A stretch of 53,500 bases of DNA, taken from assembly GCA_012960135.1 (NCBI GenBank), contig DUBW01000085.1, positions 1-53,500 of the forward strand, read 5' to 3'. Source of the stretch: Methyloprofundus sp. (lineage in GTDB: Bacteria > Pseudomonadota > Gammaproteobacteria > Methylococcales > Methylomonadaceae). The position numbers and the translations under genes were made by a program. This document shows positions 13,653-53,336 of this stretch, piece by piece; the stretch's first letter is position 1, and every line of letters begins with the position of its first letter. Below the pieces are notes generated by a model, which did not search any database, had not been told where the DNA came from, and worked only from the letters and a program-made list of their open reading frames with translations.

Positions 13653-14837
<1,185 letters not shown>

Positions 14838-14945: not shown

Positions 14946-15212
14946 CTAAAGCCAGCTAATTGCCAAAGTATCTCCCATTGCTACTCGCCTTTTTTTTAGT
15001 TTAACTAGTTTTTCGGTATCCGCAGAAAGCAAAACAACACCCGATGGAATAAGCGAAGAGCAATCATCTATTATCGATGAATGAGGCAATTTTAAGTAAT
15101 ATTCATTTACTTTCCCAGCGCTCATCTGAACTAAAAGATTTAGCCGCAGAAACCCCTCCCTTTGATAGTTTGTCCCTGAGTTAAAACTCAAGACTACTGG
15201 GATATTACTCAT
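14946..15212 (-). CDS. doubtful small hypothetical protein (88 aa)
   Basis: An open frame of 88 codons with no family I recognise. It is Leu/Ser rich with no membrane segment. No Shine-Dalgarno sequence precedes the ATG at 15212. Its first ~17 codons lie antisense to an mscS remnant on the plus strand, which argues against that start; an internal ATG at 15125 would give 59 residues. It could be chance coding in a decayed intergenic region. Confidence 0.2.
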   Translation of the reverse strand: MSNIPVVLSFNSGTNYQREGFLRLNLLVQMSAGKVNEYYLKLPHSSIIDDCSSLIPSGVVLLSADTEKLVKLKKRRVAMGDTLAISWL

Positions 15213-15302
15213 TTAGTAAAAAAGCGCTTTGCTGCCGAAGGCATTTCCATTCCTTTTCCTCAGCGTGATGTGCATGTTATTCAAGAGGCTAACAGCGGCT
15301 AG
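15162..15302 (+). pseudogene. remnant of an MscS-family mechanosensitive channel (C-terminus only)
   Basis: The plus strand from 15180 reads VKTQDYWDITHLVKKRFAAE, followed by GISIPFPQRDVHV and a TAG stop at 15300. This is the characteristic C-terminal end of small MscS channels (VKT.DYW.. ..KKRF...GI.IPFPQRDVH). Immediately upstream the frame continues PLIVCP, then TGA at 15177 where the family has Trp. A few residues between YWD and VKKRF are missing. No pore or N-terminal part is seen upstream. It is clearly non-functional. A terminator-like hairpin lies just downstream. Confidence 0.75.
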
Positions 15303-35228: not shown

Positions 35229-36145
35229 TGTAATGGTCAAGTAAAATAGGACATATTCTTAGACTATTTTACTATGGAATTCACGCTCAAACTCTCAAGG
35301 TGATTGATCGCCCAATTTAGAGTACGTTCGCTTACCATTATAAAAAGCTAGGTAATCAATAATACTCAGCTTTGCTGCATTTTCATGATACCCAGATGAT
35401 TGCGGTACTCTTTACTCGCATATTGGCCGCCACAACCCTAATGATGTCGCAGTCCAGGCTTGGGATTTCTGCGCAAAAATACCAACTGCAAGGCATCTGA
35501 ACAAAGCGAGGTACGCATATGATCATTAATCGCGTTACTTGATAACGCCCTATTTTGCTAAGTGCATCTGCCATGCGACGACTTCCATACACTTGTTTAT
35601 TTTCATAAAAAATCTGCTCAACTTTCTATTTAAGTTCAGCTTCTTCTTTGTTTTTTTCTACCTGTCAGGATTATTTGTCTAGGCATCATAAGCACGGGCA
35701 CTGACTCGTATAACGCGACATAGTGCGGTCACAGGGTATATCTTCTGTTGCTCGCGAATAAATGCGACCCTTATTCAGCTTCTTTCGCAAAGAAGAGTGC
35801 GGCCTTTTTTAATAGTTCGCGCTCCCTACGCAATTGTTCGTTTTCCTTGCGTAAGCGTGTTAATTCATTATGTGTATTTAGATTTAATGCAGAATAATTT
35901 TTAATTATTTTCTCTTCAGGGCCTTTCTCAGCCTTAACTCAGCGACTAATAGTGCTTAATGAAACCCCTATATGATCTGCGGCTCGTTGTCGCGCATATC
36001 CATTTATAAGCACTCATTTTGCCGTATCCTGTTTAAATTCTAGTGTCTATCTAGATTTTGGCTGTTTGTTTTCGTTACTCATATTCACCTCTAATGACTT
36101 AATAAATCAGCCTTTAGATGTGCCCTGCTTTATTAAACCATTACA
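35229..36145 (-). mobile_element. degraded IS3-family element
   Basis: The left end begins TGTAATGGTCAAGTAAAATA and the right end, read inwards on the minus strand, begins TGTAATGGTTTAATAAAGCA, an inverted pair. The two decayed frames between them are an IS3-type orfA and orfB on the minus strand. At about 917 bp it is shorter than a full IS3 element (1.2-1.5 kb), so it is internally deleted. No direct target duplication is visible at the two outer edges, which would fit a deletion at one side. Its right end truncates the condensation-domain gene at 36146. Confidence 0.8.
35270..36082 (-). pseudogene. IS3-family transposase orfA/orfB remnants
   Basis: From the ATG at 36082 the minus strand reads MSNENKQPKSR, then a stop, then TLEFKQDTAK, then HTH-like RQRAADHIGVSLSTISR and LRKENEQLRREREILKKAAL (the orfA leucine zipper), broken by several stops. 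Further on come the OrfB pieces KVEQIFYENKQVYGSRRMAD and IDYLAFYNGKRT. The catalytic core between them is largely missing. It is beyond function. Confidence 0.85.
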
Positions 36146-36424
36146 ATTTTTATCTTCAGTATTATTCGAACATTCCCAATAATGTAATTCAACAGGTTTA
36201 GCCGGGTATACGATTTGCATTATTTCATCATCATAGCGTCGAAAGCCTGTCCGTAATGACTCATGACGGCTTGCCAGCTGATTAATAGCACGCTCTAGCG
36301 CTTCTGTGTTCAAGCAACCTTTAATTTCAAGCACTAAGCTAAAATGGTAAAACGGGTTTTCAGGTTCAAACTGTGTTAAAAACCATATTCTTTGTTGAGC
36401 AAATGATAACGGCGTTTTCTTCAT
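36107..36424 (-). pseudogene. N-terminal fragment of an NRPS condensation domain, truncated by an IS
   Basis: 105 codons. Motif C1 is PLSFAQQRIWFLTQFEP (residues 4-20) and motif C2 is RHESLRTGF, both typical of peptide-synthetase condensation domains. The catalytic HHxxxDG and everything after it are absent. The first ~93 residues are native; the last twelve codons and the stop (36107-36145) lie in the IS end, so the tail CNGLIKQGTSKG is IS-derived. It stands 69 bases after the P450 in the same direction and would have been the start of a large NRPS gene. Confidence 0.85.
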
Positions 36425-36493
36425 TTGAAGCTGAATGATGTGCTACCACCCTGATTCAATTTCATAAACTACTCTATTACTTTTGTAAAAAGT

Positions 36494-37654
36494 CTATTTA
36501 CAATAACGAATTTTCATCATCGCTTCCACATACACTCGCCGAATAGGGTCTTCAGCCTCAACAGGATCAGCGTGATGCGTTATTTCAAATTCATTTAATA
36601 GCACCGTTAGAAAACTTTTCATCACTCTCCATGAAAAAGCGCCCCCAAGGCATATATGTGCCCCAGCACCAAATGCAATATGAGATTGTTTTCGATTAAG
36701 GCTAAGGCAGATTAAATGTGGTTTTAAAAAAATATCGGGATCATAATTTGCTCGCTGTAAATCACAAGTAAATACCGTCCTCTTTGGCAGCAAGGCATCG
36801 CATAGCATAATGTCCGTTTGAGTTATTGAATGTGTTGTCCAGCGCAAGCCATTTGCCAGCCGAAAACATTCATGAATAAATCGATTTATTTGTTCTGGTT
36901 TTTGCTGCAATTGATATTTTAACGCGGGCTCTTTCGATAAACAGACCATAGAAAACGTTAAACACGTACTCAGAAATGTAATGATGGGGTTAGCATTTAG
37001 GCCAAACAATAAGCCCACATCGATTGGGTTCATACCATTTGTATTTATTTTTTTTAGAATCTTCGCCTGCGACAGTAATGGCCCCATATCGTTAATAAAG
37101 GTTTCTGCATAATAACTATTTTCAATGATATCAGGTAAACGTTTATCCATTAAAAGAGTAGCTTGAATAAATCGGTAGGCTAACTCGTTCATTGTATTAA
37201 ATGTCTCTGTAGAAACATTCAGCTCGTTTAAAATAAACCCTTGGGTTATAGCAATAGATATCGCTTCATGAACATTACATGCCGGTGAAGTGCTCGCTCC
37301 TTTTAAAAACTCCCGGCTAATGCGTGCCAGCTTGTCATTCGTCCACGACGTAAATAGTGGCTCAAAAATATCCCGTGACATACTTCGCATCTGAGCATGA
37401 TTTTCATTCTTAGCTAATACTGATGTCAAACTACTAAGCCGGACCAATGCTTCAGGATTTTTTCCCACCCGTTTTAACATTGTCTCTACAGCTTCCATGC
37501 TATCCGATACATCCACCTCTTTATGACGGAGTAATGTCATCACATCTGAATAGCGGCTGACGATGACAGGTGAAAACGGTGAGGGTCGAAACGGCTTACT
37601 TGGCGCCTCTACTACTGGAAGCATTGGGTCATAGTAATCAGCAAAATCATGCAT
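36494..37654 (-). CDS. cytochrome P450 with non-canonical I-helix
   Basis: A 386-residue soluble P450. The heme-thiolate loop is FGAGAHICLGGAF with Cys335, the K-helix ExxR is ECFR at 262-265. The I-helix position that normally reads AGxxT has FGLNANP (217-223), so both the acid and the Thr of the oxygen-activation pair are missing. In the P450 families known to lack this pair, chemistry is often unusual (peroxygenase, dehydratase or carrier-bound substrates). Start MHDFADYYDPMLP resembles P450 N-termini. The gap to the upstream PhyH gene is five bases: same operon. Probable substrate is a carrier-bound acyl chain, which is inference. Confidence 0.88.
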   Translation of the reverse strand: MHDFADYYDPMLPVVEAPSKPFRPSPFSPVIVSRYSDVMTLLRHKEVDVSDSMEAVETMLKRVGKNPEALVRLSSLTSVLAKNENHAQMRSMSRDIFEPLFTSWTNDKLARISREFLKGASTSPACNVHEAISIAITQGFILNELNVSTETFNTMNELAYRFIQATLLMDKRLPDIIENSYYAETFINDMGPLLSQAKILKKINTNGMNPIDVGLLFGLNANPIITFLSTCLTFSMVCLSKEPALKYQLQQKPEQINRFIHECFRLANGLRWTTHSITQTDIMLCDALLPKRTVFTCDLQRANYDPDIFLKPHLICLSLNRKQSHIAFGAGAHICLGGAFSWRVMKSFLTVLLNEFEITHHADPVEAEDPIRRVYVEAMMKIRYCK

Positions 37655-37659
37655 GGCTC

Positions 37660-38469
37660 TTAATCCTTATCGCTATTATTAAAAATAATTTTCATGCCTG
37701 AACGTAAAATATTTCGATGCCTCATCATATCTTCTTTTTGCATCAGCCCCTGCGGCTTTTGCTCAAGGTCATAATGTCCAAAATCTATACCACTGACATG
37801 AATTACCGTTCCACGCTCTCCATCTTGTTGTCGGTTATCCGCAGCGATATAACGAATGGCAAAACCTGAGCGCTCTGACTCAGCTTTATTTATCGATGAA
37901 CCATGAACGAGTAGAGGGTGGTGTATAGATAACTGCCCTGCATTCAGTTCAACATCTATTATTTTATGTTTATTAATATCAAATCGAGCCACTTCTTTAC
38001 GCCCTAACATGTTATTGGCATCACTTGGATGATCATGAGGCACAACCTCTTTATGACTACTTGGAATAACTCTCACACATCCATTTTCAGTACTGCTTGG
38101 TGTCAAAGCAACCCAAACAGTTACTGCCTGGTGATTACTCAAGCCCCAATGTGTCGCATCTTGATGCCAAGATACATGCTTACTATCGTTAGCTAACTTA
38201 GTAATCATGCTGGTACCAAAACAAAGTACATTTTCGCCGAGTAATTGCTGAACTAAGCTCACAATCCGCTCATCCATAACCAGGTCCCATAATGCTGGTA
38301 CTAAAAGGTGTGGTTTATATTTTAGAATAGGAGGTATACGCCCGCCATGGGAGTCTTTAAGCTGTAACCATTGCTTTAAATAGCTATCTACCTCTTTGTT
38401 AGAAAGTAAGTCTAACGGAAATAAGATACCCTGCTTTTCAAAATTACTAATATCAATGTCTGATAACAT
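37660..38469 (-). CDS. PhyH-type Fe(II)/2-oxoglutarate dioxygenase, copy 2
   Basis: A 269-residue phytanoyl-CoA-dioxygenase-like protein. The iron ligands are H102 and D104 in SWHQDATHWGL and H189 in LLVHGSS; the 2-oxoglutarate Arg is R200 in ERSGFAIRYIA. The intact HxD shows an oxygenase, not a halogenase (which would have Gly or Ala). It resembles the other PhyH gene at 40126 in length and along its whole sequence (LLVP.LWDLV, WHQD.T.WGL, NGC.RV.P.SH, GFAIRYIA). FAAL lies eight bases upstream, P450 five bases downstream. Likely hydroxylates a fatty-acyl or amino-acyl intermediate; substrate unknown. Confidence 0.9.
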   Translation of the reverse strand: MLSDIDISNFEKQGILFPLDLLSNKEVDSYLKQWLQLKDSHGGRIPPILKYKPHLLVPALWDLVMDERIVSLVQQLLGENVLCFGTSMITKLANDSKHVSWHQDATHWGLSNHQAVTVWVALTPSSTENGCVRVIPSSHKEVVPHDHPSDANNMLGRKEVARFDINKHKIIDVELNAGQLSIHHPLLVHGSSINKAESERSGFAIRYIAADNRQQDGERGTVIHVSGIDFGHYDLEQKPQGLMQKEDMMRHRNILRSGMKIIFNNSDKD

Positions 38470-38477
38470 GAATATCT

Positions 38478-40109
38478 CTACTTAAAAACGTCAGGCATTT
38501 GCTTTAATAACTGACGCGTCGCAAATCGTTGTATTTTTCCACTTGTTGTTCTAGGCAATCTACCTCTAGCATGTATGCTGATAGAACTTTGTACGCCAAA
38601 GTCGCTTGCAATGAGTGCCTTTAATGACTTTCGTAATATTTCCCTATCTGCTCCCGCTATTGAAGGATAATGAACCTCCAAAGCAACATGAATGCTATCT
38701 GCTTTTTCATCTGGTCCTCTTATGGCAACAGCGGTGTCTACTCTGGCATCAAAGCCTAGGACTGTATTTTCAACTTCACCTGGGCCCATTGATCCACCTC
38801 GAATCGGGATAATTTCTTTTAGGCGATCTAGTATAAGCAGCTCATCATCTTTAATCATACCAATATCGCCTGTCGGTAAATAGCTTAAGCCATCAGGACC
38901 GATAAAACTCTCTTCATAAGGTATAAGTTTTCCGTTAGGCCCTTTACTCCACAAGCCGGGGGAAATACTTTTACCAGCAACACATATTTCACCTCCCTCT
39001 GAAGTAAAAGATTCTGGTAATTCTCTAAACATGAGATGGCAGCCTAGGGGCGCGCGCCCACAACTCAATCGCCCGTCAACAACACTTGGTGCTCCAGCTG
39101 TACATAACAACGTAGCTTCAGCCAAGCCATAGCAATTAATAAATGACTTATAGTTAAAGCCTGTGTTTTTTGTTAACTTAGAAAAATCGTTTAATACACT
39201 TGGTTGAGCTGGCTCTCCACCTAAAAATGCAATACGCCAATTTGAAAGATCAAGTTCTGCGATAGCTTCTGGTGTAATTCGACGATTACAAATTGCATAG
39301 CCGAAATTCGGGGCGCCGGCAAAATCGGCCTGATGATCCGCAATGGCCTTAATCCATCGAAGGGGGCGACGTAAAAACGTCTCGGGTGACATTTGTACGA
39401 CTGTTGCACCTTTTGTTAATGGCGCTAATAGCGTGCCGAACAAGCCCATATCATGATGATGGGGCAACCATGTCACCGCTACTGAGCTTGGCTTGCATTG
39501 AAATACCTCATGAATCATGTGTAAGTTTGCCATGATATTGGCATGTGTAAGAGCAATGCCGTGCGGCTCACTGGTTGAGCCTGAGGAAAACTGAATAATC
39601 GCAGGTCTATTAGCAGATATAGGTTTAAATGTAGTTTCGTTAACCTTAGTATCTTCTAGATCTTCATCTTGAAAACTGAATAGTTCATATTGTTCTGCAA
39701 TACTGGGTACTGAATGCAATTTTTCATCACATAGAATAAGGCTTGGGGATATATGCTTTACCACTGACTCAAAACGTTTTTTTGTACGGGCTTGATTTGG
39801 TATCGGTAATGGTACAGCGATGACCCCCGACACTAGGCAGGCAAGTAAAGTCACAATAAACTCTACCCCGGCATCATAGGCTAATATAACCGGCTGATTC
39901 CTAACATTCATCGATGCAAGCTTTATAGCACGATAGTTAGCTCGCAACCAAAGCTCATCATAGCTCAAGCATTGTGTAACTGTTTCCCCATCAGCTAAAA
40001 ACCGAATCGCATCGACATTAGGCGTGGTTTTAGACCAATGCCTTATTTGCTCCGCAGGTAAATCCAATGTTGGTTCTGACGTCATCGCTATATTCTTAGA
40101 AGGCTCCAT
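38478..40109 (-). CDS. fatty-acyl-AMP ligase (FAAL)
   Basis: A 543-residue adenylate-forming enzyme. Core motifs in order: IQFSSGSTSEPHGIALTHAN, TWLPHHHDMGLFG (the WLPxxHDMG signature of FAALs), NCYGLAEATLL, SYLPTGDIG, LDRLKEIIPIRGG and the C-terminal TTSGKIQR with the adenylation Lys. FAALs make acyl-AMP and pass the acyl group to an acyl carrier protein rather than to CoA. A stand-alone ACP is encoded in the same operon. No fused carrier or further domain follows. The chain length cannot be told. Confidence 0.92.
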   Translation of the reverse strand: MEPSKNIAMTSEPTLDLPAEQIRHWSKTTPNVDAIRFLADGETVTQCLSYDELWLRANYRAIKLASMNVRNQPVILAYDAGVEFIVTLLACLVSGVIAVPLPIPNQARTKKRFESVVKHISPSLILCDEKLHSVPSIAEQYELFSFQDEDLEDTKVNETTFKPISANRPAIIQFSSGSTSEPHGIALTHANIMANLHMIHEVFQCKPSSVAVTWLPHHHDMGLFGTLLAPLTKGATVVQMSPETFLRRPLRWIKAIADHQADFAGAPNFGYAICNRRITPEAIAELDLSNWRIAFLGGEPAQPSVLNDFSKLTKNTGFNYKSFINCYGLAEATLLCTAGAPSVVDGRLSCGRAPLGCHLMFRELPESFTSEGGEICVAGKSISPGLWSKGPNGKLIPYEESFIGPDGLSYLPTGDIGMIKDDELLILDRLKEIIPIRGGSMGPGEVENTVLGFDARVDTAVAIRGPDEKADSIHVALEVHYPSIAGADREILRKSLKALIASDFGVQSSISIHARGRLPRTTSGKIQRFATRQLLKQMPDVFK

Positions 40110-40125
40110 AATGGTTTACTTAACT

Positions 40126-40929
40126 TTATTCTCTATGAACTACTGCTTGGCCACGCTTTAAAATAACACAGTGGCGCTTTAAGGCCTCTCGATGGAATAA
40201 CCCTTCAGGCTTTTCTTCTAACAGAAAACCACCCAGATCTTTACCATGAACTAAAGTTGCATAATTAGGTTCATCCATAACACCTTTTAAATAGCCTGCT
40301 ATATACCGAATAGCAAAACCTGCTCTACGCTGCGTACCGGTATTGGGTTCTGAGCCATGTATTAACCTTTGATGGTGCAAAGACATCTCACCAGCGTTAA
40401 GTATTATATCAACAGCAGGAGCTTCAACACTCTCAGCCAAAGTTTCACTACGAAGTTGTAGCATATTGCTTGGGTCCTCCATTTCAACATGCTTCAATTG
40501 ATCACCATGAGACATAGGAACAACTCGCAAACAGCCATTGCTTCGATCTGATGTCGAAAATGCAATCCAAGCAGTCAATGCATCGGGTTTTTCTAGCCCC
40601 CAATAGGTTGAGTCTTGATGCCAAGGAACATGATCCGTGCTACCTGGTAATTTATCAAAAAAACTTGAACCCCAGCACAACACATCTTCACCTAATATAT
40701 CTACGACAGGCTCAATTACAGCTGAGGAACGTACTAAATCCCACAACCACGGGATAAGTAAATGCGCCTTAATATTTAAGGCCGGTGGTAGTTGTCCTCC
40801 TCGAGCAGAACCTAAAGTCTCTGTCTTATCACGGAGATGTGATATATTTTCTTTTGATACAACACGAATAGGCGATAGATAACCTTGTTGCTGGTAGTGT
40901 TCGAGTTGCTGTTTTGACAAGTGAGCCAT
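40126..40929 (-). CDS. PhyH-type Fe(II)/2-oxoglutarate dioxygenase, copy 1
   Basis: A 267-residue paralogue of the gene at 37660. Iron ligands H104/D106 in PWHQDSTYWGL and H191 in LIHGSEPN, with R202 as the likely 2-oxoglutarate contact. Its start codon overlaps the glycosyltransferase stop (TAATG), so translation is coupled, and FAAL follows 16 bases after its stop. Two such oxygenases flanking a FAAL suggests two successive oxidations of the activated acyl chain or of a residue later condensed with it (inference). Confidence 0.9.
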   Translation of the reverse strand: MAHLSKQQLEHYQQQGYLSPIRVVSKENISHLRDKTETLGSARGGQLPPALNIKAHLLIPWLWDLVRSSAVIEPVVDILGEDVLCWGSSFFDKLPGSTDHVPWHQDSTYWGLEKPDALTAWIAFSTSDRSNGCLRVVPMSHGDQLKHVEMEDPSNMLQLRSETLAESVEAPAVDIILNAGEMSLHHQRLIHGSEPNTGTQRRAGFAIRYIAGYLKGVMDEPNYATLVHGKDLGGFLLEEKPEGLFHREALKRHCVILKRGQAVVHRE

Positions 40930-41792
40930 TAGTCGGCTTGCCCCCTTTGAGGGCGTGCATTATACACCAGACCTACTTCTTGAATATGACGCAAGGGGTA
41001 CCCACGCAATTTATAATACTTGGCACTGCTATCCTTCAAAACCTTCATCGCCTGTTCTGGGCCACTCGTTGTTAGGCCCCCATGTATTTGATGAAAAGTT
41101 GCCTCCCCATCGATACGTATAAGCTGTGTTCTAGGCAGGTTAAGGGCTCTTATCAGCATATCAGGGTTAACAGCCCCCCCTCCTGGCTCATCAAAAGCAA
41201 CATCATATCCGCCTAACTCATTCCATAATTCTCTCGGCATGAATAATGCGTTACTTTCCAACAAGCTCCCTGTTGGCATTTCTTTAACTTCTGGTATGGA
41301 AATATCAAATAGGCGATATGGCTGTTGTGGCCAATCAATGGAATCTAACAGCTCATCTTCAACCCTTTGATCATAACCTCTCTGAGGTGCTAGAAACTGA
41401 CGTTGCGGCCCTAATTGCCAGTTTAACGTAGCAATTACTGGGCGCGCAGCCATTTTGGATGCACTAAAGCAGGCTTGGATTAATCCCGGTGAAGCCAAGC
41501 GTGCGGCATCAATCCAGACACCAATCAATTTACCTTTGGCATACTCAAGACCCTGGTTAATAGCAAAAACTGGCGATTTTGAATGCGTTCGACATGAGAT
41601 TATTTGTAAATCTATATTTAGGTTGCTAAATTCGTCGATATTTGGAGTGGGTGTCGAGCCGTTATCAACGACAATAAGCTCTACAGATAAGGACTCTTGT
41701 ACAAGCTGATAGGATTTTGACAAAGAAAACAACGTGCGAGGCAGCTCTCTTTGCATATTGAAACTAACCAAAACAATAGATACGTCAATCAT
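40929..41792 (-). CDS. family-2 glycosyltransferase
   Basis: A 287-residue GT-A enzyme. It begins VSIVLVSFNMQRELPRTLFS, then the nucleotide-binding ELIVVDNGSTPTP, AINQGLEYAKGKLIGVWIDA (with the metal-site Asp in WIDA), and later LGGYDVAFDEPGGGAVNPDM with the catalytic-base region. There is no TM segment. Acceptor and sugar unknown. It lies 20 bases after the ACP gene and overlaps the following oxygenase gene by one base, so it belongs to the same operon and may glycosylate the product. Confidence 0.85.
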   Translation of the reverse strand: MIDVSIVLVSFNMQRELPRTLFSLSKSYQLVQESLSVELIVVDNGSTPTPNIDEFSNLNIDLQIISCRTHSKSPVFAINQGLEYAKGKLIGVWIDAARLASPGLIQACFSASKMAARPVIATLNWQLGPQRQFLAPQRGYDQRVEDELLDSIDWPQQPYRLFDISIPEVKEMPTGSLLESNALFMPRELWNELGGYDVAFDEPGGGAVNPDMLIRALNLPRTQLIRIDGEATFHQIHGGLTTSGPEQAMKVLKDSSAKYYKLRGYPLRHIQEVGLVYNARPQRGQAD

Positions 41793-41812
41793 TGAGGTTA
41801 TTCCTATCTAGA

Positions 41813-42100
41813 TTAATGACCTGCATTTGCCGCAGCAAATTGATCTATAGATGGGTATTTAAACAACAAGGCAGGGTCAACAATGACACAAAACTCTTCT
41901 TCCATAACGCCTGCCATAACAATTGCTTCAACAGAATCAAGGCCATATGCATCGAAGCGATCAGAGGTTTTAAAGCTGTTTTCATCTAACGTCAGTACAT
42001 TTAAAATGAAGTTTTTAAGCCAGTCTTTTAGTTCATCTTCACTTAAAGGAAGCTTGATAGGCTTTATTTCATCTAAAGCAGTTTGCTCATTAGGGCTCAT
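41813..42100 (-). CDS. stand-alone acyl carrier protein
   Basis: A 95-residue protein with the phosphopantetheine site GLDSVEA (Ser56) in a four-helix carrier fold (FILNVLTLDE, FDAYGLDSVEAIVMAGVMEEEF, LFKYPSIDQFAA). It is not the housekeeping AcpP, which has DSLD in a highly acidic context. The start codon is one base after the stop of the pyruvyl-transferase-like gene. In FAAL gene clusters such carriers accept the acyl-AMP, which is the likely role here. Confidence 0.9.
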   Translation of the reverse strand: MSPNEQTALDEIKPIKLPLSEDELKDWLKNFILNVLTLDENSFKTSDRFDAYGLDSVEAIVMAGVMEEEFCVIVDPALLFKYPSIDQFAAANAGH

Positions 42101-42101
42101 A

Positions 42102-43334
42102 TTATTTTCCTGTACTGTTCCTATTTAATCTAAATGGCATAAGTGGCCAAGACGTACCTTCCAATACTATACCCTGTCGAAGCATTGCTGCTAGAAAGCC
42201 TTGCCGTTGTTTGGCGTAATCCTGCGGATTAGCAAGCGCATCCCGTATATTGGACCAGTGCGTATCTAACATTTGGAACACACTCTCAGGTAACGGGCAC
42301 TGAGACGATTCGCCTAATAGTACAGCTGCTCTCTCAAATGCCGTATACCAGTTCAACATCAGATCTTTCGTCATTCCAATATGATCCAAATAGCCTTTAA
42401 ATTTATTATACGAAGGGCGTGCAATTAATACACTAGGAATTGCATAAGAGCTTGCAACAATATAGCCATGTAGCGATGCGCCAATATACATACGAGCATG
42501 TGCAATCACACTTGTTATTTCTTGTAGATTGACGGGGTCATCATAAACAACATGAGCTTCTTTCATATATGCTGATACTGCTTGTGCCGTACCTAGATCA
42601 TCATGAGCTTCACCCAGTGCAATTAAAATCGGTATGTGCTGACTTTTTTTAGTGAACGCATCAATCAAGTTTGCTAGTTTTTCAGGGCCTATACCAGAAA
42701 GACTTCTATCTCGGATATGCATCGCTAAAATAGGCTTGTTCTGAGTAGCCGCATATCGCTGCTGGAAATTAGCAAAGCTTGAAGATAAATCTTCCTTCAG
42801 CCAAATGCGAGACAACTCAGCTATCGGATCAGGGATAATAGAGACTTTACCATTGTTAGGTGCGGGCAATAGATTAGCACTGCCTTTATCCCTGACTGAA
42901 AGATAAGACGCTGCTGATATAGTTTCCTTTACATAAGGGAGGTGCTGTTTAGGAAATGGAAATGGCACTCCTGGCGCATTCCAAACTAAAGGAACATCTG
43001 CTAAACACGCACTTAATGTTGCCCCCAACCATGTTGAGCTAACAGCATTATCATATTCTTTGCTATTGGTATAATTGAGTAATTTAGATATTGGTTGATT
43101 ATGAATAATATAACCTCCACCAATAATCACTCCATCAACTTTATCATTTTCTCTAATAAGCTCATCAATAGCTCTTGGCGTCGTCACCTCTAATCCCGGA
43201 GAAGCATTAGAAGGCGCATAGGGGATTACTGAATAGCCAAACTCTTTAAGTCTGTATTTCGCAATAACTGGGAATAACAAATCTCCATAGTTGCGCATGT
43301 CAAACATGCCGCATATAGCAATATTTTTTTTCAA
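42102..43334 (-). CDS. polysaccharide pyruvyl transferase family protein
   Basis: A 410-residue GT-B-like protein of the PF04230 family. It begins IAICGMFDMRNYGDLLFPVI, then GVIIGGGYIIHNQ and the C-terminal ARMYIGASLHGYIVASSYAIP with the conserved His. Members such as CsaB transfer pyruvate to sugars of cell-wall or exopolysaccharide; many homologues have unknown roles. First gene of the tight minus-strand operon, upstream of the ACP by one base. Its N-terminus also resembles other nucleotide-sugar-type transferases, so true activity is open. Confidence 0.85.
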   Translation of the reverse strand: MKKNIAICGMFDMRNYGDLLFPVIAKYRLKEFGYSVIPYAPSNASPGLEVTTPRAIDELIRENDKVDGVIIGGGYIIHNQPISKLLNYTNSKEYDNAVSSTWLGATLSACLADVPLVWNAPGVPFPFPKQHLPYVKETISAASYLSVRDKGSANLLPAPNNGKVSIIPDPIAELSRIWLKEDLSSSFANFQQRYAATQNKPILAMHIRDRSLSGIGPEKLANLIDAFTKKSQHIPILIALGEAHDDLGTAQAVSAYMKEAHVVYDDPVNLQEITSVIAHARMYIGASLHGYIVASSYAIPSVLIARPSYNKFKGYLDHIGMTKDLMLNWYTAFERAAVLLGESSQCPLPESVFQMLDTHWSNIRDALANPQDYAKQRQGFLAAMLRQGIVLEGTSWPLMPFRLNRNSTGK

Positions 43335-43858: not shown

Positions 43859-45211
43859 TCAGTGTTTGTACAATTCACAAGCATCTAGAGCGTCATAGAT
43901 CTGTTGCGGAATAATATTATCTTTATCAAGCGCGTGGGTATAGCTTTCCAAGTTGAATGAATAGGGTGGTGTTGGTTTTTCTGAGCATTTTGAACAGTAC
44001 GGGAGATCATCTTTATCCATCGTTTCAGATGTCTTTTGGAAGGCTAATGTGTCTGAAAAAGATAGTCTTGATAGCTTGGCTCCCTCAGAATTAACCACGG
44101 CATTATGCTTCGAGCTGGTATTAAACTGCGCATATACAAGATTTTTATCGCTTTTTTTAACGGTAGGTGCTGCGCAACAGGGCATTACCCTCCCAGATGC
44201 ATCTAATGTCAGGTTATGATATAGCCATTTGCAGGTGTTGGTATCTACGCTGTTTTCATTTATGGGTGGGCTTGTGACGTTATCATTCCAAGATACTTTA
44301 AAAGCTTGATTTATTTTTTCTGAATGATTTGATGCAGCATCTATCTCGTCACTAAAAGAATTTTGTATCCCTGTATGGTTAAAAACAACACGACCTTCCT
44401 TGTTTGAGGTTGTAATTTTAATTTCAGGGTCGTCCCAGCTTACGTCAAACGGGGTTGAGATTATTATTTCATCCATGCCTAATTCTTTAGCCATATCTAT
44501 GGCGTCATCAACTTCATTTACATTATGTTCAAAAGTTAGGTATGACCAAATTAAGTGCGGCTTACTTAAGCCATACCTCTTTTTAGCACTTACTAATGAT
44601 TTAATATTATTAATTACAGTAGCAAACTCTCCTTTACGGCGATATTTTTCGTAGGTTTCTTGGCAGCTGCCATCTATTGACAGTAATAAAACATCAAGAC
44701 CTGATTTAACTATACTATCTGCATCAATTTTCAACGATAAATTGGTAGAAGTCATTGTAAATAAATGATATTTTTTTGCGTAACGAACCATTTCTGAAAA
44801 CTTTTTATGTAGTAGTGGTTCGCCATAATTATATAAAATGGCTGCCGAAGCGTGAATTCCAAATTGATCTAAGAAGTCTTGATACTGATCAATCGGCAAA
44901 AGTTTTTTAGGCCAGTCAAAGATCTGGGGGATTTTTTGGTTGCCACTATGAACACACCCAGGGCACCTGAGCTGACAGCTATTTGACGGGTCAATCATTA
45001 GCTGTACAGGGCTAGATGATAATTCAACAAGCCTATTTTGATACTCATATTCACTGGCGAAAAAATTAGACAGTTTTAATGATAATAATTTACAGAATGT
45101 ATCATTTCTGTAGTGTCTACTCAAAAGCTGATATAAGTCTACTTGGAATTGGTCAAGTGATTGAAAATAAGCACTACTAGGTCGTGCTATGTCAAGAATG
45201 TCAAGATTCAT
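43859..45211 (-). CDS. radical SAM/SPASM-domain protein
   Basis: A 450-residue enzyme. The [4Fe-4S]-SAM motif is NSCQLRCPGC (Cys79, Cys83, Cys86) in a frame typical of the SPASM group, followed by YNYGEPLL, TSTNLSL and LLLSIDGSCQETYEKYRRKG. The C-terminal SPASM part has CKWLYHN, the segment DASGRVMPCC and CSKC. Such enzymes modify peptides, sugars or lipids. It is the same strand as the FAAL operon but separated by 524 bases of decayed DNA, so its membership is uncertain. The N-terminal ~65 residues are not part of the SAM domain and are unrecognised. Confidence 0.85.
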   Translation of the reverse strand: MNLDILDIARPSSAYFQSLDQFQVDLYQLLSRHYRNDTFCKLLSLKLSNFFASEYEYQNRLVELSSSPVQLMIDPSNSCQLRCPGCVHSGNQKIPQIFDWPKKLLPIDQYQDFLDQFGIHASAAILYNYGEPLLHKKFSEMVRYAKKYHLFTMTSTNLSLKIDADSIVKSGLDVLLLSIDGSCQETYEKYRRKGEFATVINNIKSLVSAKKRYGLSKPHLIWSYLTFEHNVNEVDDAIDMAKELGMDEIIISTPFDVSWDDPEIKITTSNKEGRVVFNHTGIQNSFSDEIDAASNHSEKINQAFKVSWNDNVTSPPINENSVDTNTCKWLYHNLTLDASGRVMPCCAAPTVKKSDKNLVYAQFNTSSKHNAVVNSEGAKLSRLSFSDTLAFQKTSETMDKDDLPYCSKCSEKPTPPYSFNLESYTHALDKDNIIPQQIYDALDACELYKH

Positions 45212-45544: not shown

Positions 45545-45731
45545 TTACCAGATTAAGAAATAGCTATCCTAGTTAGTTAATAAGAAATACATAGCGCCTT
45601 ATAATCACCACCGATTACATTTAAGTTTGGATTATACAAAGCTACAAAAATATGAGAAATTATACTCTTAGTACGTCCCGGAGAAAGTGGTATATTATCA
45701 ATCATGCCATACAATGACGAGTAATAGAGAA

Positions 45732-47366
45732 ATGGAAAATGATATCATTAACACTGATCAGAATATTCTAAAGGGTGAAATGCTGTTAGATGCGGTAGCG
45801 CAAAAGAAAGGCACAAAGGGCCTAGTGAAAGCGCTTGAAACAGCAATGGAACAAGGTGACTTAAAAGCTTCGCAGGTACTGCTATTGGCTGGACTCGAGA
45901 CTCCCGAAGTCGCTAAATACGTTGCTGCCCGTATCCCACAATTTGTTAAGCTACCGGGAACGAATACAGAAATACGAAGTAATATATTAAAGCGATTTCC
46001 TTTGGATCTAGCAAACGGTTTATCAATAGAGATAGTCGAAGCTGTTCTTGAAAATGTGGCTGGCAAAGCTGATTATCAACAGTTGTTGTTGCTCGCACAT
46101 AAACATACAGGACATTTCCGGTTTGGTTGGCAGTTGTCGAAGGACCTGACCATGGGGGGCAATCTTGATCAGGCTGTAATTGTACTGGATGAAATGGAAG
46201 AACGGGGGCATCAACATACCTTCATTTACCAGAGCCATGCCGAATATTTAAGTGTGCTTGGACAGCATAAACGAGCAATCGAGATTAGCCATAAGATTTC
46301 GAATGAAAACCCAACCGAGACGAATTTGAAGCGTAGCTACTTGCGCATGCTTATGGCTGGAGGATCCCTGGCAGAATTGGAAAGGGAATTGCCGATTATT
46401 CTTGCTGCAAATCCCAGTGACTGGATGCTGGCCGCCTTTCTACACCGCGCACGGGTTTCAGCAGCAACATTGATAAAGTGTTTTGCATTACTTGTGCCAC
46501 CAAATACTTCCAGTGACCCACGATATATTCTTTATTACGCAGCTTCAGCTATTGCAGTGAATGATCTAGACGCTGTTCGCGCTGCATTGACGCTTAATAT
46601 CCCCGACGAGATAGCTTATGCCCAGTCATTTAAGCGAGGAGTTCAATACGTTCTGGACAGAGATATTAAAATAAGTAGCCGATTTGTTTGTGACCCAACT
46701 CAATCCTATCAGGTGGTTAAGGCAGGTAAAGGTAAACCAACAGTAGTGGTGTGTTTAAGTAATTCAGGGATTAATTTTTCGTTTCTCAGCATTGGTTTTA
46801 TTGATCAATTACTGTCTGAATTTGACGTTAATGTGATCTATCTTCATGAGTCACGCAAAATGTTATTCCACGGTGGAATTGAGGGCCTGGGGGATACTGA
46901 AGCTGAAACACTTGCTGCTATTGAGCGATTACATGATGAATTGGACTCTTCCCTGAAAGTGACTATGGGTGCATCATTGGGGGGCTATGGCGCAGCCCGT
47001 TACGGACACCTTAGCAAAGCTAATGCCGTGTTGTCTTTTTCAGGACCTACGGACATGTTCCAGTTTACTGAAGCGGCAATACCCCAAGCCATTCATTCGC
47101 CTCAATTTCTTATCATGCAGCAAGTTCGTAGAACACTCACTGCTCAAGATTGTAAATTGAAATCAGTAATCGAAACATCTGGTACTAAACACTATCAATT
47201 CTATGGAGAACAAGCAAGTATAGATACAATACAGGCAAATAATATAGCGAACCTGTCGAATGTTGAATTGATACCCGTACCGGAGATTACAGATCATTTT
47301 GTTTTTGGTTATTGTGTTGCTAACGGACAACTCCAGAAAATTCTCTCCGAGGTTTTGACAAATTAA
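45732..47366 (+). CDS. helical-repeat protein fused to an alpha/beta hydrolase
   Basis: A 544-residue protein from the ATG at 45732; starts at 45714 (ATG) or 45687 (GTG) are also possible, and none has a strong ribosome site. The first ~300 residues are TPR-like helices, for example FIYQSHAEYLSVLGQHKRAI. The last ~230 form an alpha/beta-hydrolase fold with the nucleophile elbow GASLGGYGAARYG, a strand PTVVVCLSNSGINFSF before it, and a late ITDHFVFGY with the probable catalytic His. Substrate unknown; related genes often occur in surface-glycan islands. Transcribed away from the radical SAM gene. Confidence 0.7.
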   Translation: MENDIINTDQNILKGEMLLDAVAQKKGTKGLVKALETAMEQGDLKASQVLLLAGLETPEVAKYVAARIPQFVKLPGTNTEIRSNILKRFPLDLANGLSIEIVEAVLENVAGKADYQQLLLLAHKHTGHFRFGWQLSKDLTMGGNLDQAVIVLDEMEERGHQHTFIYQSHAEYLSVLGQHKRAIEISHKISNENPTETNLKRSYLRMLMAGGSLAELERELPIILAANPSDWMLAAFLHRARVSAATLIKCFALLVPPNTSSDPRYILYYAASAIAVNDLDAVRAALTLNIPDEIAYAQSFKRGVQYVLDRDIKISSRFVCDPTQSYQVVKAGKGKPTVVVCLSNSGINFSFLSIGFIDQLLSEFDVNVIYLHESRKMLFHGGIEGLGDTEAETLAAIERLHDELDSSLKVTMGASLGGYGAARYGHLSKANAVLSFSGPTDMFQFTEAAIPQAIHSPQFLIMQQVRRTLTAQDCKLKSVIETSGTKHYQFYGEQASIDTIQANNIANLSNVELIPVPEITDHFVFGYCVANGQLQKILSEVLTN

Positions 47367-47650: not shown

Positions 47651-49150
47651 ATGAATTCTGAAAAATACAGTGGTGCTTGTTCTATCTGTGGGGAAAAAGG
47701 AGAGTTTGCTCGAGGGGAGCAGCGTTCTATTCGAGAAAGTTACCCTTGCCCTAGCTGTCGATTTACTTTGCGATGGCGAGATCAAGCCGCAATTATACTT
47801 GATGAGTTTGGTCGAGGTCAGGCTTTATCACTGACCCAGCTCGTCAATAATCGGCATTTGGATAGGATCGATATTTTTGAACCTGCATTACGAGGTCCGT
47901 TTGTACAACGTTTTCAGGAGCTTCCTAAATATGTGCAAGGCTACTTTTGGCCTGAAGTTGAAAAAGGTGTGATAAACAACAACGGTGTGCGTAATGAAGA
48001 CTTGACCGATCTTTCTTTTCAAGATGATTGTCTTGACCTCTTTATTACCAGTGATGTCATGGAGCACCTTTATGATATCGAAAAGGCTTTTAGCGAAATT
48101 CACCGAGTGCTAAAACCCGGAGGAATACATGTTTTTACTATTCCAAATACAGCCCCCTTTCCCGATACCACGATTAAAAGGGTTAATATCGAGCATGACG
48201 GAACCCTTGCTCACCTTAAGCCTGCCCACTATCACAATTCAGGGGATGGTTCAAAATGCTTAGTTTATACGGATTACGGGGCTGACATCGTCGACATGAT
48301 TGATCAGTTCGGCTCAACAACGTCTGTTGTACGTCGCAGCAGCGCCCTTTCGACAAGTATTCAAAATGCAACTTTTGTAACGCGTAAGCTAGCAGGGTCT
48401 GGAGGCAGACGCCCGCCTAAGCCATCATTTCCGGTTAAAAAATCTAGCAGTGAACTGCAATGCCCTATATGTAGTGGCATGGTATTCGAAGCATTTAACG
48501 GTCGAACGAATGCCCGCTGTAGTAGCTGTCGCGCAGTAGAGCGTAACCGATTGATGTGGATGTTACTTGAAGAAAAGGGGGCGTTTGAACCCGAATTGAG
48601 AACCATGCACTTTTCCCCTGAATACGGCCTAGCAAAGAAGCTACACGAACTTTCAGGTGAAAAATATTTTGCTTGTGACTTCGACCCACAGCGCTACGAA
48701 AGTAAGTTATTTACAGTGCATGAAATAAATATGTGTACTGATCTTTCTGATATACCTGACGCATCTTATGACTTAATTCTTCATAACCATGTCTTAGAAC
48801 ATGTTGCCTGTGATGTGCATAGCGTAATGAACGAGCTTTATCGGATTCTAGCCCCTAGTGGCAAACACTTCTTTTCTGTGCCGATCAGAGGTCAAATTAC
48901 CGCTGAAGATATGTCAGAAGACCTTACTGATACCCATAGATTGATGCGCTTTGGCCAAGAAGATCATTTCCGAATATTTGGCACTAAAAGTTTAAAAGAC
49001 ATGTTACGCGACATTTGGGGTGAAGGGCAGTATGTGCTAGAGCCCCTTGCTTTACTTGGCGAGGATAAATTGAGGCGAGCTGCGATACCACACTCTGCCT
49101 GGACAGGCATATCCAGCCATAGCATCTTTGGTATGACTAAACTGAAATAA
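47651..49150 (+). CDS. tandem zinc-ribbon methyltransferase (two copies fused)
   Basis: A 499-residue protein made of two similar halves. Half 1 (about 1-255) has CxxC pairs C10/C13 and C33/C36 and a methyltransferase-11 part (ITSDVMEHLYDIEKAFSEIH, RVLKPGGIHVFTIPN). Half 2 (about 265-499) has CPIC and CSSC and repeats the pattern (LHNHVLEHVACDVHSVMNEL, YRILAPSGKHFFSVPIRG). The glycine-rich SAM motif I is poorly visible in both. Such zinc-ribbon methyltransferases occur in glycan loci. Methyl acceptor unknown. The 284-base gap to the upstream gene holds nothing recognised. Confidence 0.75.
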   Translation: MNSEKYSGACSICGEKGEFARGEQRSIRESYPCPSCRFTLRWRDQAAIILDEFGRGQALSLTQLVNNRHLDRIDIFEPALRGPFVQRFQELPKYVQGYFWPEVEKGVINNNGVRNEDLTDLSFQDDCLDLFITSDVMEHLYDIEKAFSEIHRVLKPGGIHVFTIPNTAPFPDTTIKRVNIEHDGTLAHLKPAHYHNSGDGSKCLVYTDYGADIVDMIDQFGSTTSVVRRSSALSTSIQNATFVTRKLAGSGGRRPPKPSFPVKKSSSELQCPICSGMVFEAFNGRTNARCSSCRAVERNRLMWMLLEEKGAFEPELRTMHFSPEYGLAKKLHELSGEKYFACDFDPQRYESKLFTVHEINMCTDLSDIPDASYDLILHNHVLEHVACDVHSVMNELYRILAPSGKHFFSVPIRGQITAEDMSEDLTDTHRLMRFGQEDHFRIFGTKSLKDMLRDIWGEGQYVLEPLALLGEDKLRRAAIPHSAWTGISSHSIFGMTKLK

Positions 49151-49910: not shown

Positions 49911-52900
49911 ATGAATGGCTCAGATACTCATAAAAAAGAACAACCCAGCGCAAAGGAGCTCAAAACTAAATTTCTCGATGCGAATGGTTTTCTAGAACAG
50001 GAAAAGTGGAAAAAAGCTGAGGCCCTTTATAAAGAGTTGCTCGAATATGGTCCACCCTCGGTCGCACTGCTATGCAAACTAGCCTCATCCGCCATAGGAT
50101 TGAAGGAATACAGCAAAGCCGAAAGCTTATTAGTAAAAGCCGAAAACCTAGATCCCAGCTTTATTTGGACCTACGTCATACGCGCAGATATTTGTCAGGA
50201 ATCAAGTAATCTTGACAAAGCCATATTCAATCTTAAAAAGGCACAGGAAATAGATTCTTCCCTCTCTTTTCTTGCCGACCGTATTACTGCACTTGAAAAA
50301 AACCTCAGCAACAAAGTTTCTGCCAAACAGAATGATTTTCAACAGCTCTTTCAAAAAGCCAATAACCTGTTTGAGGATCATGAACTATTAAAAGCAGAGG
50401 TTATCTATCTTAAGCTTTTAAACGAATCGCCTAGCTCAGCGCCACTGTTATGTAGGCTCGCAGACGTGGCAAGTAAATTCGGCCGCTACCAGCAAGCAGA
50501 AGAGTATTACAATACAGCTGAAAAATCGGACCCAAACTTTCATTGGACCTATATTGGGCGATCTGAACTGTGGATTCTATATCAAGACTATAAAGCAGCA
50601 AGAGAACAACTTGAAAAGGCACAGGAATTAGCTCCAAACCTAAGCATCATTCCCGGCCGTATTGAAAAAATCCAACAAAAATTACAAACAAAGAAACGCC
50701 TGAAAGGCGACGTTGAAATAATCCACTGGCCATCAACTGCAGTCAAGCGCTCGTCTAAAAACGAGCAAGGAGAGCCTCTCAAGGTAACGGTAGTTTCTTG
50801 GGATATGGGCCACAACCCACTAGGCAGAGCAGCTCTATTGGCAGAACTCGCACTAATTAATGCCGACACAGAATTAGTAGGCCCTCTATTCCCAGATTTT
50901 GGCGAAGAGATCTGGTCTCCTCTATTCGATAATCAACGTTGTTTTGATATGCGCTGTTTCTACGCGGATAGTTCGTCCCGGTTTATTGAAGGCGCTATGC
51001 GTCTGGTCTCTGAAAAACCAGCGGATGTAGTATGGGTATGCAAACCAAGGCTGCCCAGCCTTTTAATCGGCTACCTATACAAAATTATTCATGGCTCACA
51101 CCTTATCTGCGACATCGACGACGATGAACTTGCCTTTGCAGAAGGCGATTCCCCGCTTAATTTTGATGCATTTCTTTCAGATTTCAGTCACTCAGATTGG
51201 CATGCACTTTATGCTAATCGATGGATTCAATTTGCCCAAAGTCTGATCCCGTTTTCTGATGGAACCAGTGTCTGTAATCCCCTTTTAGGAAACCGCTTTG
51301 GCGGAGAGCTTATTCGGCACGCCAGAGACGAGAACCACTTTGATCCAAACCGATACAACCGCGACTCATTAAGAAAAAGTCTAGGCTACTCGGAGTCAGA
51401 CCGTATTGTGCTCTTTATGGGAACACCACGGCGCCATAAAGGGCTTCTCGACATTGCAAAAGCACTGGCGGCCTTGAACGACGAACGAATCATTTTCAGT
51501 ATAGTAGGCTCAATACCCGAAACCGACTTTAGAGATGAACTCAAATCATTCAGCTCACTCAGAATAAGCTTTCAACCTAACCAGCCTATGTATAAGGCTG
51601 CCAGTATTAACTTTATGGCAGACTTGGTTTGTATTTTTCAAAACCCCGACGACCCCATCGCACAGTGGCAGACACCAGCAAAATTAACCGATGCATTAGC
51701 CATGGGCGTCCCTGTCATAGCAACAAGAGTTCCTCCTCTAGAAGATTTCATTGATGCCGGGCTAGTTATAACAACCGACAACAACAATTTAACCAAATCA
51801 CTGTCCGAGGCCTTGGAGGAAAAAAATCGTAGCGACGGTGCTCGCAGTAGCCGTAGAAAATTCTTTCAAGAGGAACTGTCGTACAAAACTAATGCCAAAC
51901 GGGCCGTCGAACTATTCAATGAATCGAGGAAGACCTGTCAAGACGTACCGGCTGATGTGATCAAACTGCTGAAATTTATTGATCGCGATATGCCTGGGAT
52001 GGTAAAGCAAAGCCTTGCAAAACAATTTGGTGACATCTTCCATATTGGTAACAGGGTACAGCCCTTTTCTAATCCAGAAAAAGGCATAAACCTTGTCTTT
52101 TTCTGGAAACAGAATGATTCAGGTATATACGGTCGACGTCAGGATATGCTGCTTGAAGAGCTAAGACGATCACCGAGGATTAATAAAATTCTGCATATCG
52201 ATGCACCAATCTCCATTGATCAGCTTAACTCTATAAGTTCACAGACTGGCGTTGATAGCACCAATCAAGGCGCACTCATCACATCCAGCACTATTTCACG
52301 TTTTTTGCGAACTAACGATGAGTACAAAATCTATAAGCGCAGTTTTATTTATCGCGGCAATGAATCCAAACTTTTTGGACAAGAACTACCCTATAAAGAA
52401 AGCTATCCCAACTATGTTGAGCAATGGATAAACGAACTCGATATGGCCGAAAATGCCATGGCTTGGGTATGTCCAGTTGTGCCCATGTTCCCTGAAGTAC
52501 AGGAACGCATTGGTTTCTCCTGGGTTGTCTGTGATGTAATTGATGACCAAAGACAATGGCCTATGCTACCAAGTACCCGCGAACTGGTTGAAGAGAATTA
52601 CCTGAAAACTTTCGCAGCAAGTGATCTCTTCTTCACGAACTGTGAACCGGTAGCGGAGTGGCTTCGAAGCGAAAAACTCAATGTCGCAGTGGTTCCTAAT
52701 GGAATGGAAATTCAGAAAGGTGTCGAAAACTGGTCAACGCCTCCAGAATTAGACTTTGTAGCTGGCCCTATAGTCGGTTATGTAGGCAACCTACATTCAA
52801 GAATCGATTGGGATCTAATTGAAGCTATTGCCGTAAATCGCCCAAATTGGTCTATCATTCTTATTGGTTCTATAGCTGAAGGCGAACAAATTAGCAGAGT

Positions 52901-53336
52901 AACTTCTCTTTATAACGTAACGGCCCTTGGCGTAATCCCCTATGCCAAAGCCACAAAATATATTGCCGCGTTCGATGCGGCTATGATTCCACATACAATT
53001 ACGACCCTATCGGAAAAAATGAACCCATTAAAACTCTACGTATATAGAGGCTTGGGAATTCGTGTTGTCTCTACACCGGTCGCTAATATTGGTGACCTTT
53101 CCAGTGAGATCGATATCGCCGACAACCCAGATGAATTTATACTGGCTCTTGAAAATTCAATCGCAGAGCACCAAAAGGATGGCAGAAGCTATCCCAGCGC
53201 CAAAACAATGCGAGCACTATCCTGGACAAGCCGGTTAGCATCCATATTTAAGCATCTAGATTTAGCCTGGAAAAAGAAACAAACAGATGATGCTGCTGAA
53301 AAAAACCAGCTAAATAGTTTAACCACCTTACTATGA
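49911..53336 (+). CDS. TPR protein with two glycosyltransferase domains (1141 aa)
   Basis: Domain order: two TPR blocks of about 115 residues that are copies of each other (1-150 and 140-265: compare LEEYGPPSVALLCKLASSAI-type and LNESPSSAPLLCRLADVASK), a first GT-B-like transferase (about 290-690; LFMGTPRRHKGLLDIAKALA, ISFQPNQPMYKAASINFMAD, TPAKLTDALAMGVPVIATRV), and a second one (about 710-1130; GRRQDMLLEELRRSPRINKI, VVPNGMEI, VGYVGNLHSRIDWDLIEAI, MNPLKLYVYRGLG). The segments LICDIDDDELAF and VVCDVIDDQRQWP lie at equivalent positions of the two copies. Role is probably glycan assembly; sugar and acceptor unknown. The N-terminal region may bind protein partners. Confidence 0.8.
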   Translation: MNGSDTHKKEQPSAKELKTKFLDANGFLEQEKWKKAEALYKELLEYGPPSVALLCKLASSAIGLKEYSKAESLLVKAENLDPSFIWTYVIRADICQESSNLDKAIFNLKKAQEIDSSLSFLADRITALEKNLSNKVSAKQNDFQQLFQKANNLFEDHELLKAEVIYLKLLNESPSSAPLLCRLADVASKFGRYQQAEEYYNTAEKSDPNFHWTYIGRSELWILYQDYKAAREQLEKAQELAPNLSIIPGRIEKIQQKLQTKKRLKGDVEIIHWPSTAVKRSSKNEQGEPLKVTVVSWDMGHNPLGRAALLAELALINADTELVGPLFPDFGEEIWSPLFDNQRCFDMRCFYADSSSRFIEGAMRLVSEKPADVVWVCKPRLPSLLIGYLYKIIHGSHLICDIDDDELAFAEGDSPLNFDAFLSDFSHSDWHALYANRWIQFAQSLIPFSDGTSVCNPLLGNRFGGELIRHARDENHFDPNRYNRDSLRKSLGYSESDRIVLFMGTPRRHKGLLDIAKALAALNDERIIFSIVGSIPETDFRDELKSFSSLRISFQPNQPMYKAASINFMADLVCIFQNPDDPIAQWQTPAKLTDALAMGVPVIATRVPPLEDFIDAGLVITTDNNNLTKSLSEALEEKNRSDGARSSRRKFFQEELSYKTNAKRAVELFNESRKTCQDVPADVIKLLKFIDRDMPGMVKQSLAKQFGDIFHIGNRVQPFSNPEKGINLVFFWKQNDSGIYGRRQDMLLEELRRSPRINKILHIDAPISIDQLNSISSQTGVDSTNQGALITSSTISRFLRTNDEYKIYKRSFIYRGNESKLFGQELPYKESYPNYVEQWINELDMAENAMAWVCPVVPMFPEVQERIGFSWVVCDVIDDQRQWPMLPSTRELVEENYLKTFAASDLFFTNCEPVAEWLRSEKLNVAVVPNGMEIQKGVENWSTPPELDFVAGPIVGYVGNLHSRIDWDLIEAIAVNRPNWSIILIGSIAEGEQISRVTSLYNVTALGVIPYAKATKYIAAFDAAMIPHTITTLSEKMNPLKLYVYRGLGIRVVSTPVANIGDLSSEIDIADNPDEFILALENSIAEHQKDGRSYPSAKTMRALSWTSRLASIFKHLDLAWKKKQTDDAAEKNQLNSLTTLL

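Follow-up and report, generated by a model that had tools for sequence, protein, structure and literature searches.

What is a compact run of acyl-activating, oxidising and glycosyltransferase-like genes doing in a methane oxidiser, and is it the front end of a broken lipopeptide assembly line? The question is raised by the window, by which we mean the whole stretch analysed, 53,500 nucleotides of contig DUBW01000085.1 from Methyloprofundus sp. (assembly GCA_012960135.1). The host genome encodes particulate methane monooxygenase A, which implies that the organism oxidises methane. Eight minus-strand open reading frames (ORFs) occupy positions 36107-43334 and, as computed from their coordinates, are separated by 1, 20, -1, 16, 8, 5 and 69 bases; their Pfam labels are PF04230, PF00550, PF00535, PF05721 (twice), PF00501, PF00067 and PF00668. 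A preliminary description of this DNA had listed the same eight frames and seven spacings, which our recomputation reproduced exactly, under domain labels that Pfam backs in each case. It had taken them for one gene unit, the starter half of a lipopeptide line ending at a cut condensation domain of a nonribosomal peptide synthetase (NRPS). We favour another explanation, to which we give a probability of about 0.55: seven of these genes form a complete, horizontally acquired cassette that loads an acyl group onto a free-standing acyl carrier protein (ACP), oxygenates it and hands it to a glycan-type acceptor, without an NRPS. The cassette does not lie at a contig edge, since the contig runs to 55,638 bases.

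Gene order and relatives of the cassette

The seven genes, all on the minus strand, are the following.

42102-43334, minus strand: PF04230 polysaccharide-pyruvyl-transferase-like protein, first cassette gene (Pfam E 4.9e-21; 39-47% identity to its positional counterpart in five carriers)
41813-42100, minus strand: free-standing ACP, carrier serine in a GLDS motif (PF00550, E 4e-11; 54-58% identity in the four carriers measured, Defluviicoccus being left aside)
40929-41792, minus strand: protein of glycosyltransferase family 2 (GT2) with a predicted GT-A fold, its DXD motif replaced by D-(G/A)-A-R (PF00535, E 7.6e-8)
40126-40929, minus strand: PhyH1, iron/2-oxoglutarate (Fe/2OG) oxygenase of putative hydroxylase type, HxD...H (PF05721; groups with the other PhyH1 proteins in the tree)
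38478-40109, minus strand: acyl-AMP ligase of the fatty acyl-AMP ligase (FAAL) clade with a shortened FAAL-specific insertion (PF00501; FAAL models and structures among the best matches)
37660-38469, minus strand: PhyH2, second Fe/2OG oxygenase, a separate orthologue group in the tree (PF05721)
36494-37654, minus strand: cytochrome P450, last conserved cassette gene (PF00067; FGAGAHICLG and ExxR motifs; 19-24% identity to the P450s of five carriers)

The order PF04230-ACP-GT2-PhyH-FAAL-PhyH-P450 is common to the window and five alphaproteobacteria, namely Sphingobium sp. RAC03, Sphingobium D43FB, Sphingobium YR768, Defluviicoccus SSA4 and Pseudooceanicola nanhaiensis, whose cassette proteins are 19-60% identical to those of the window. 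Plasmid pBSY17_1 of RAC03 holds all seven genes in the order and orientation of the window, with identities of 56% for GT2, 56% for the ACP, 46% for PhyH1, 41% for PhyH2, 40% for PF04230, 39% for the FAAL and 20% for the P450. A genome scan with the GT2 protein, which relied on two short peptide patterns and so gives a lower bound, found at least five loci: the full order in D43FB, YR768, Defluviicoccus and Pseudooceanicola, and, in the alphaproteobacterial metagenome-assembled genome palsa_895, a set whose order is rearranged and in which GT2 occurs twice. The Defluviicoccus ACP was seen as tblastn pieces in more than one frame. The preliminary description had proposed looking for the same order elsewhere; with five other genomes the order is not unique, the claim of a single gene unit is borne out, and the sharing of the seven-gene order is not due to chance.

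Gene structure also speaks for a functional unit. In the three Sphingobium cassettes, counting the gene for a tetratricopeptide repeat (TPR) protein described below, neighbouring genes overlap by four bases at 17 of 21 junctions, a count that depends on the start codons chosen in the analysis. In Pseudooceanicola, a 574-residue ORF joins GT2 to PhyH1 and a 799-residue ORF joins the FAAL to PhyH2; read as gene fusions, the two are strong evidence that members of the cassette work together. The cluster is compact in Pseudooceanicola, where the genes from the TPR-hydrolase to the P450 occupy positions 6505-15244 of locus L032 and a gene for an AcrB-type pump adjoins them. Upstream of this cassette (L032 3562-5844, minus strand) lies a gene for a PAN-domain protein with a match to the thiol-activated-cytolysin domain (E 7.1e-19). 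A variant set in genome G855 is spread over two contigs and comprises a FAAL, a ketoacyl synthase, a TPR protein, two PF04230 proteins, an ACP, two PhyH proteins and a GT2; the ketoacyl synthase adjoins the FAAL (L059 2666-5347), which suggests an acyl-elongating variant and fits an acyl or a polyketide substrate.

Single genes of the cassette have a wider distribution. PhyH1 finds matches in 11 of 369 genomes of the host class, its own included, and no other cassette gene matched in the ten class loci examined (six stretches of 14-20 kb and four of about 3.7 kb, with loci L011-L013, L016, L017 and L019 outside); among 71 matching plasmid records, one of the four examined was a cassette. PhyH1 alone is thus a poor marker. 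The GT2 subfamily occurs without the cassette on Rhodobacter CZR27 and Acuticoccus plasmids, in genomes G1462 and G1503, and in regions from six of the seven other matching genomes of the phylum (G1122 being outside this count), so that GT2 alone was likewise rejected as a marker. Outside the cassette the subfamily is also found fused to methyltransferases (L035 18001-19542 and L051 16718-18541), one such fusion sitting in a plasmid polysaccharide cluster, and three genomes of the window's class hold two adjacent GT2 copies.

Within the host family, PhyH1 matched one of 237 genomes at E 1e-10, that of the host itself, and none of the 236 others. Seventeen of the 18 genus genomes, host included, carry the neighbouring DUF3422 gene, and in three other DUF3422-bearing genomes examined purD is kept before it and none of the island genes of the window follows. 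The island therefore looks acquired.

The condensation stump and the NRPS question

Two features lie beyond the P450.

36107-36424, minus strand: truncated NRPS condensation domain (stump), outside the conserved cassette (PF00668, profile positions 4-97 of 456)
35383-36060, minus strand: remains of a decayed transposase-like gene, spread over several frames and IS3-like in our reading (sequence, open segments and a PF13276 piece)

Lying 69 bases from the P450 and on its strand, the stump opens in the manner of an N-terminal condensation domain and covers only this small part of the profile. It is the sole PF00668 match in the host genome (92 contigs, about 90% complete). Past its stop codon come pieces of transposase-like protein in several frames, broken by stops; one piece of 80 residues matches PF13276 (HTH_21) with an E value of 1.3e-5, under the curated cut-off, and our reading is that the remnant belongs to the IS3 family of insertion sequences (IS). 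At or just past the end of the window (L078 453-728), a partly masked ORF resembles, by eye, an IS transposase OrfA, which would mean that IS-like pieces bracket the island.

Do intact relatives continue into an NRPS, as the preliminary description had suggested checking? They do not. In the four carriers whose genes after the P450 were identified, large glycosyltransferases follow it in RAC03 and D43FB, a weakly matching methyltransferase and then two glycosyltransferases follow it in Defluviicoccus, and in Pseudooceanicola the AcrB-type pump gene follows on the opposite strand. A search of six carriers, i.e. five genomes and the plasmid record only for RAC03, found PF00668 in one (none in YR768). 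This was Pseudooceanicola, the closest to the window in the PhyH tree, and its match lies on contig C8, the cassette being on C4. In the host family the stump is matched in 64 of 237 genomes, its own included (E 1e-10; best other match 43% over 83 residues), so that it resembles the ordinary NRPS domains of that family, and PhyH1 was not found in the other family genomes, those with stump-like NRPS domains included. We conclude that the stump is a neighbour of the cassette and not a member of it. It is best explained as NRPS DNA left over next to the IS-like remnant; it is possible that this lineage alone once added an NRPS. Of the earlier view that the unit ends at a cut condensation domain, the partial domain is thus real but stands outside the conserved cassette.

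Ligase, oxygenases and neighbouring genes

The window encodes a FAAL-type ligase together with a free-standing ACP. The best NCBIfam match of the ligase is PRK05691 (a synthetase, in its N-terminal ligase part), followed by fatty acyl-AMP ligase models; the best PDB match is 7r7f ('Polyketide synthase'), followed by 3kxw and 3pbk (Fatty Acyl-Adenylate Ligase), of which we take 7r7f and 3kxw to be FAALs. Many of its plasmid matches are annotated as fatty acyl-AMP ligases, and its AMP-binding domain is nearest to FAALs. The FAAL-specific insertion, as we place it in the alignments, measures 17 residues in the window and Pseudooceanicola, 26-36 in four other cassette or cassette-like ligases and 42-43 in three annotated FAALs, so that the window ligase lacks it in its usual length. 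According to PMC8460268, CoA rejection by FAALs rests more on other elements. The earlier proposal that ligase and ACP imply a carrier-bound acyl group agrees with this gene content, judged from sequence.

The same holds for the proposal that the acyl chain is oxidised by two non-heme iron enzymes and one P450, with which two HxD-type Fe/2OG enzymes and a P450 bearing the heme-cysteine motif FGAGAHICLG and ExxR fit. Residues H104, D106, H191 and R202, which have iron-triad and 2-oxoglutarate-binding arginine roles, are invariant in the four PhyH proteins aligned (two from the window, two from RAC03), and HxD is also present in the Defluviicoccus and Pseudooceanicola PhyH proteins seen. In Fe/2OG halogenases of the SyrB2/HctB type, Gly or Ala replaces the Asp of HxD; as HxD is kept here, hydroxylation is expected over halogenation, and both PhyH1 and PhyH2 are expected to be of hydroxylase type. 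The identity of a chlorinating enzyme was dropped on this ground, yet the best NCBIfam match of the pair is TIGR01762, the chlorinating-enzyme model, to which they score 71 and 90 bits where the cut-off is 226. Among solved structures, the monooxygenase 6zyk ranks first for PhyH1; next come CytC3 and SyrB2, which act on carrier-bound substrates. In a PhyH tree of 15 rows, five PhyH1 and five PhyH2 proteins are split by a branch with 98/97 support, a split that shuffled labels equalled in 5 and 7 of 500 cases. Of the two G855 proteins, one groups with PhyH2 and the other has no firm position; the two window proteins each pair with a Pseudooceanicola copy. We infer that the PhyH pair was duplicated before the cassette spread.

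The GT2 protein is modelled with a pLDDT of 80.7, and its fold match to the GT2 fucosyltransferase WrtF (E 8.1e-11, TM about 0.55) indicates a GT-A fold. D95, A97, R98, N209 and D211 are invariant in the nine proteins aligned.

On the other side of the cassette, four genes complete the part of the island discussed here.

43859-45211, minus strand: radical SAM/SPASM protein, inside the island (PF04055)
45687-47366, plus strand: TPR and alpha/beta-hydrolase protein, candidate acyl transferase or thioesterase (relatives and predicted fold; no Pfam family at E 0.001)
47651-49150, plus strand: double S-adenosylmethionine methyltransferase (PF08241, PF13489)
49911-53336, plus strand: large TPR-GT4 glycosyltransferase (PF13692, PF00534, TPR)

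The last three have counterparts beside the cassettes of relatives, so that the bounds of 36107-43334 given earlier are too narrow and the unit extends past 43334. These three genes and the seven cassette frames are all open in the window. A TPR protein is encoded directly before PF04230, with a four-base overlap, in all five full-order carriers, and the window protein is 23-25% identical to it. Its S430 and H537 are invariant in seven of seven sequences, and its C-terminal half is modelled as an alpha/beta hydrolase (mean pLDDT of the whole model 76). A fold search placed SPY, a TPR protein, first, followed by esterases and MenH, all at E 1.6e-4 or weaker; its weaker matches include a capsule O-acetyltransferase, at E 1.4e-3, and a complex associated with glycosylation, at E 1.8e-3. 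The methyltransferase is 38% identical over 218 residues to one of RAC03, and the GT4 is 37% identical over 843 residues to a glycosyltransferase beside the RAC03 cassette; four of the five other carriers, namely RAC03, D43FB, YR768 and Defluviicoccus, have large GT4 and methyltransferase genes flanking the cassette. As a query, the radical SAM/SPASM protein found no counterpart in the relatives' loci; its nearest NCBIfam models are metalloenzyme maturases, with scores far below the cut-offs. No polymerase, flippase or ABC exporter was found among the window genes scanned with Pfam, a part of its genes, the genome not having been searched. In the RAC03 stretch no flagellar gene is annotated, the other loci not having been checked for them.

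Possible product and competing explanations

Gene content and order, the relatives, the fusions, the active-site motifs and the lack of a condensation domain on the cassette contigs of the carriers searched are direct observations. From these we infer the substrates, step order, acceptor and product as follows. The FAAL-clade ligase would adenylate an organic or fatty acid and load it onto the ACP, where PhyH1, PhyH2 and the P450 would oxygenate the bound chain, hydroxylation being likely from the HxD triads. The TPR-alpha/beta-hydrolase protein may then move the acyl group from the ACP to a sugar acceptor, or release it. Building or decorating the acceptor would fall to the PF04230 protein and the DXD-less GT-A protein, together with the GT4s and methyltransferases in those carriers that have them. 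In a more specific form, which we hold only tentatively, the ligase, the ACP and the three oxygenases act without polyketide synthase (PKS) or NRPS, and the GT-A protein, lacking its metal site and fused to an oxygenase, acts on acyl-ACP or transfers its substrate independently of metal, giving a horizontally spreading, poly-oxygenated acyl decoration of glycans.

Several results weigh against this explanation. The GT2 protein has no DXD motif, all nine aligned proteins reading D-(G/A)-A-R, which makes doubtful the earlier statement that it adds a sugar; it may be a metal-independent transferase or have another role, and it may not be a glycosyltransferase at all. With the CsaB pyruvyl-transferase model, whose cut-off is 213 bits, the PF04230 protein reaches only 55, so that pyruvyl transfer is not assured. 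All FAAL-model scores of the ligase are far under the curated cut-offs, and given the shortened insertion the choice of ACP over CoA as acceptor is not assured. P450s and TPR proteins share only 19-24% and 23-25% identity across carriers, and their roles may therefore differ between carriers. The TPR gene of the window is oriented away from the cassette, with the radical SAM gene between them, and the palsa_895 set has no PhyH within its 20.8 kb locus. Homologues of the window GT4 and methyltransferase were not found at the Pseudooceanicola locus, so that not every carrier gives an indication of glycan attachment.

How do the competing explanations fare? The strongest is a self-contained pathway in which the acyl group is oxidised on the ACP and the hydrolase frees a small metabolite, possibly glycosylated or pyruvylated, which does not end up on a surface glycan. 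The compact Pseudooceanicola cluster with its adjoining pump gene and the invariant Ser and His of the hydrolase speak for it; large GT4s and methyltransferases alongside the cassette in four of the five other carriers, and the GT2 relative in a plasmid polysaccharide cluster, speak against it, and we consider it a possible but less probable outcome. The earlier reading, in which a lipopeptide or glycolipopeptide line once joined an oxidised acyl-ACP to an amino acid through an NRPS that has since been truncated, is unlikely. The position, strand and N-terminal character of the stump are in its favour, as are the frequency of NRPSs in the host family (64 of 237 genomes) and the known FAAL:ACP:C initiation, described in PMC9113097. 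Yet the closest carrier has no condensation domain on its cassette contig, the one among the six searched (RAC03 by its plasmid record) being on C8, the stump sits beside an IS-like remnant, and the window keeps open frames for all seven genes of the cassette though the NRPS is gone. This last fact, together with the open flanking genes and the retained active-site residues, makes it very improbable that the island is decaying and has lost its function in this genome, a view to which the stump and IS-like remnant on one side and the restriction of PhyH1 to one of 237 family genomes would lend themselves.

Compared with known systems, a putative NRPS-free cassette for acylating a glycan would combine familiar parts in a new way. 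Flagellin glycosylation islands show ACP-dependent acylation and, as in the cassette, hold an ACP and glycosyltransferases in one island; we know of no bacterial glycan island with a FAAL, a PhyH pair or a P450. The GT2 protein shares the GT-A fold of WrtF but has Ala-Arg where WrtF has its DD acidic pair, in all nine proteins aligned. Like FAAL:ACP:CIII lipopeptide initiation of the daptomycin DptE/DptF type (PMC9113097), the cassette encodes a free-standing ligase and ACP together; unlike it, the cassette has three oxygenases and glycan-type genes, and its conserved unit holds neither a complete condensation domain nor an NRPS. As described in PMC6218459, HctB, the hectochlorin halogenase, works on groups that are not amino acids and that an acyl carrier holds tethered, and similar non-heme Fe/2OG chemistry on a carrier-bound acyl chain would be expected here; the HxD triads of the cassette point instead to hydroxylation, by two enzymes plus a P450, and its seven-gene core has no NRPS or PKS. 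The preliminary description knew of no cluster with this set, and a search of open-licence PubMed Central with exact terms agrees: no paper joined 'fatty acyl-AMP ligase' to 'phytanoyl-CoA dioxygenase', nor these two to 'polysaccharide pyruvyl transferase'. The main text of the FAAL review PMC11837247 does not contain the words glycosyltransferase, P450, dioxygenase, polysaccharide or halogenase. We rate the enzymes and the FAAL-ACP start as known, and the NRPS-free arrangement common to alphaproteobacteria and a probable gammaproteobacterium as new.

Separating the stump from the cassette guards against filing the window as a truncated lipopeptide cluster. The two natural fusions and the named Sphingobium and Pseudooceanicola strains make the cassette testable. 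FAALs have been described chiefly as feeders of PKSs and NRPSs, and a cassette that has no NRPS points to an unstudied route for making and attaching oxygenated acyl groups.

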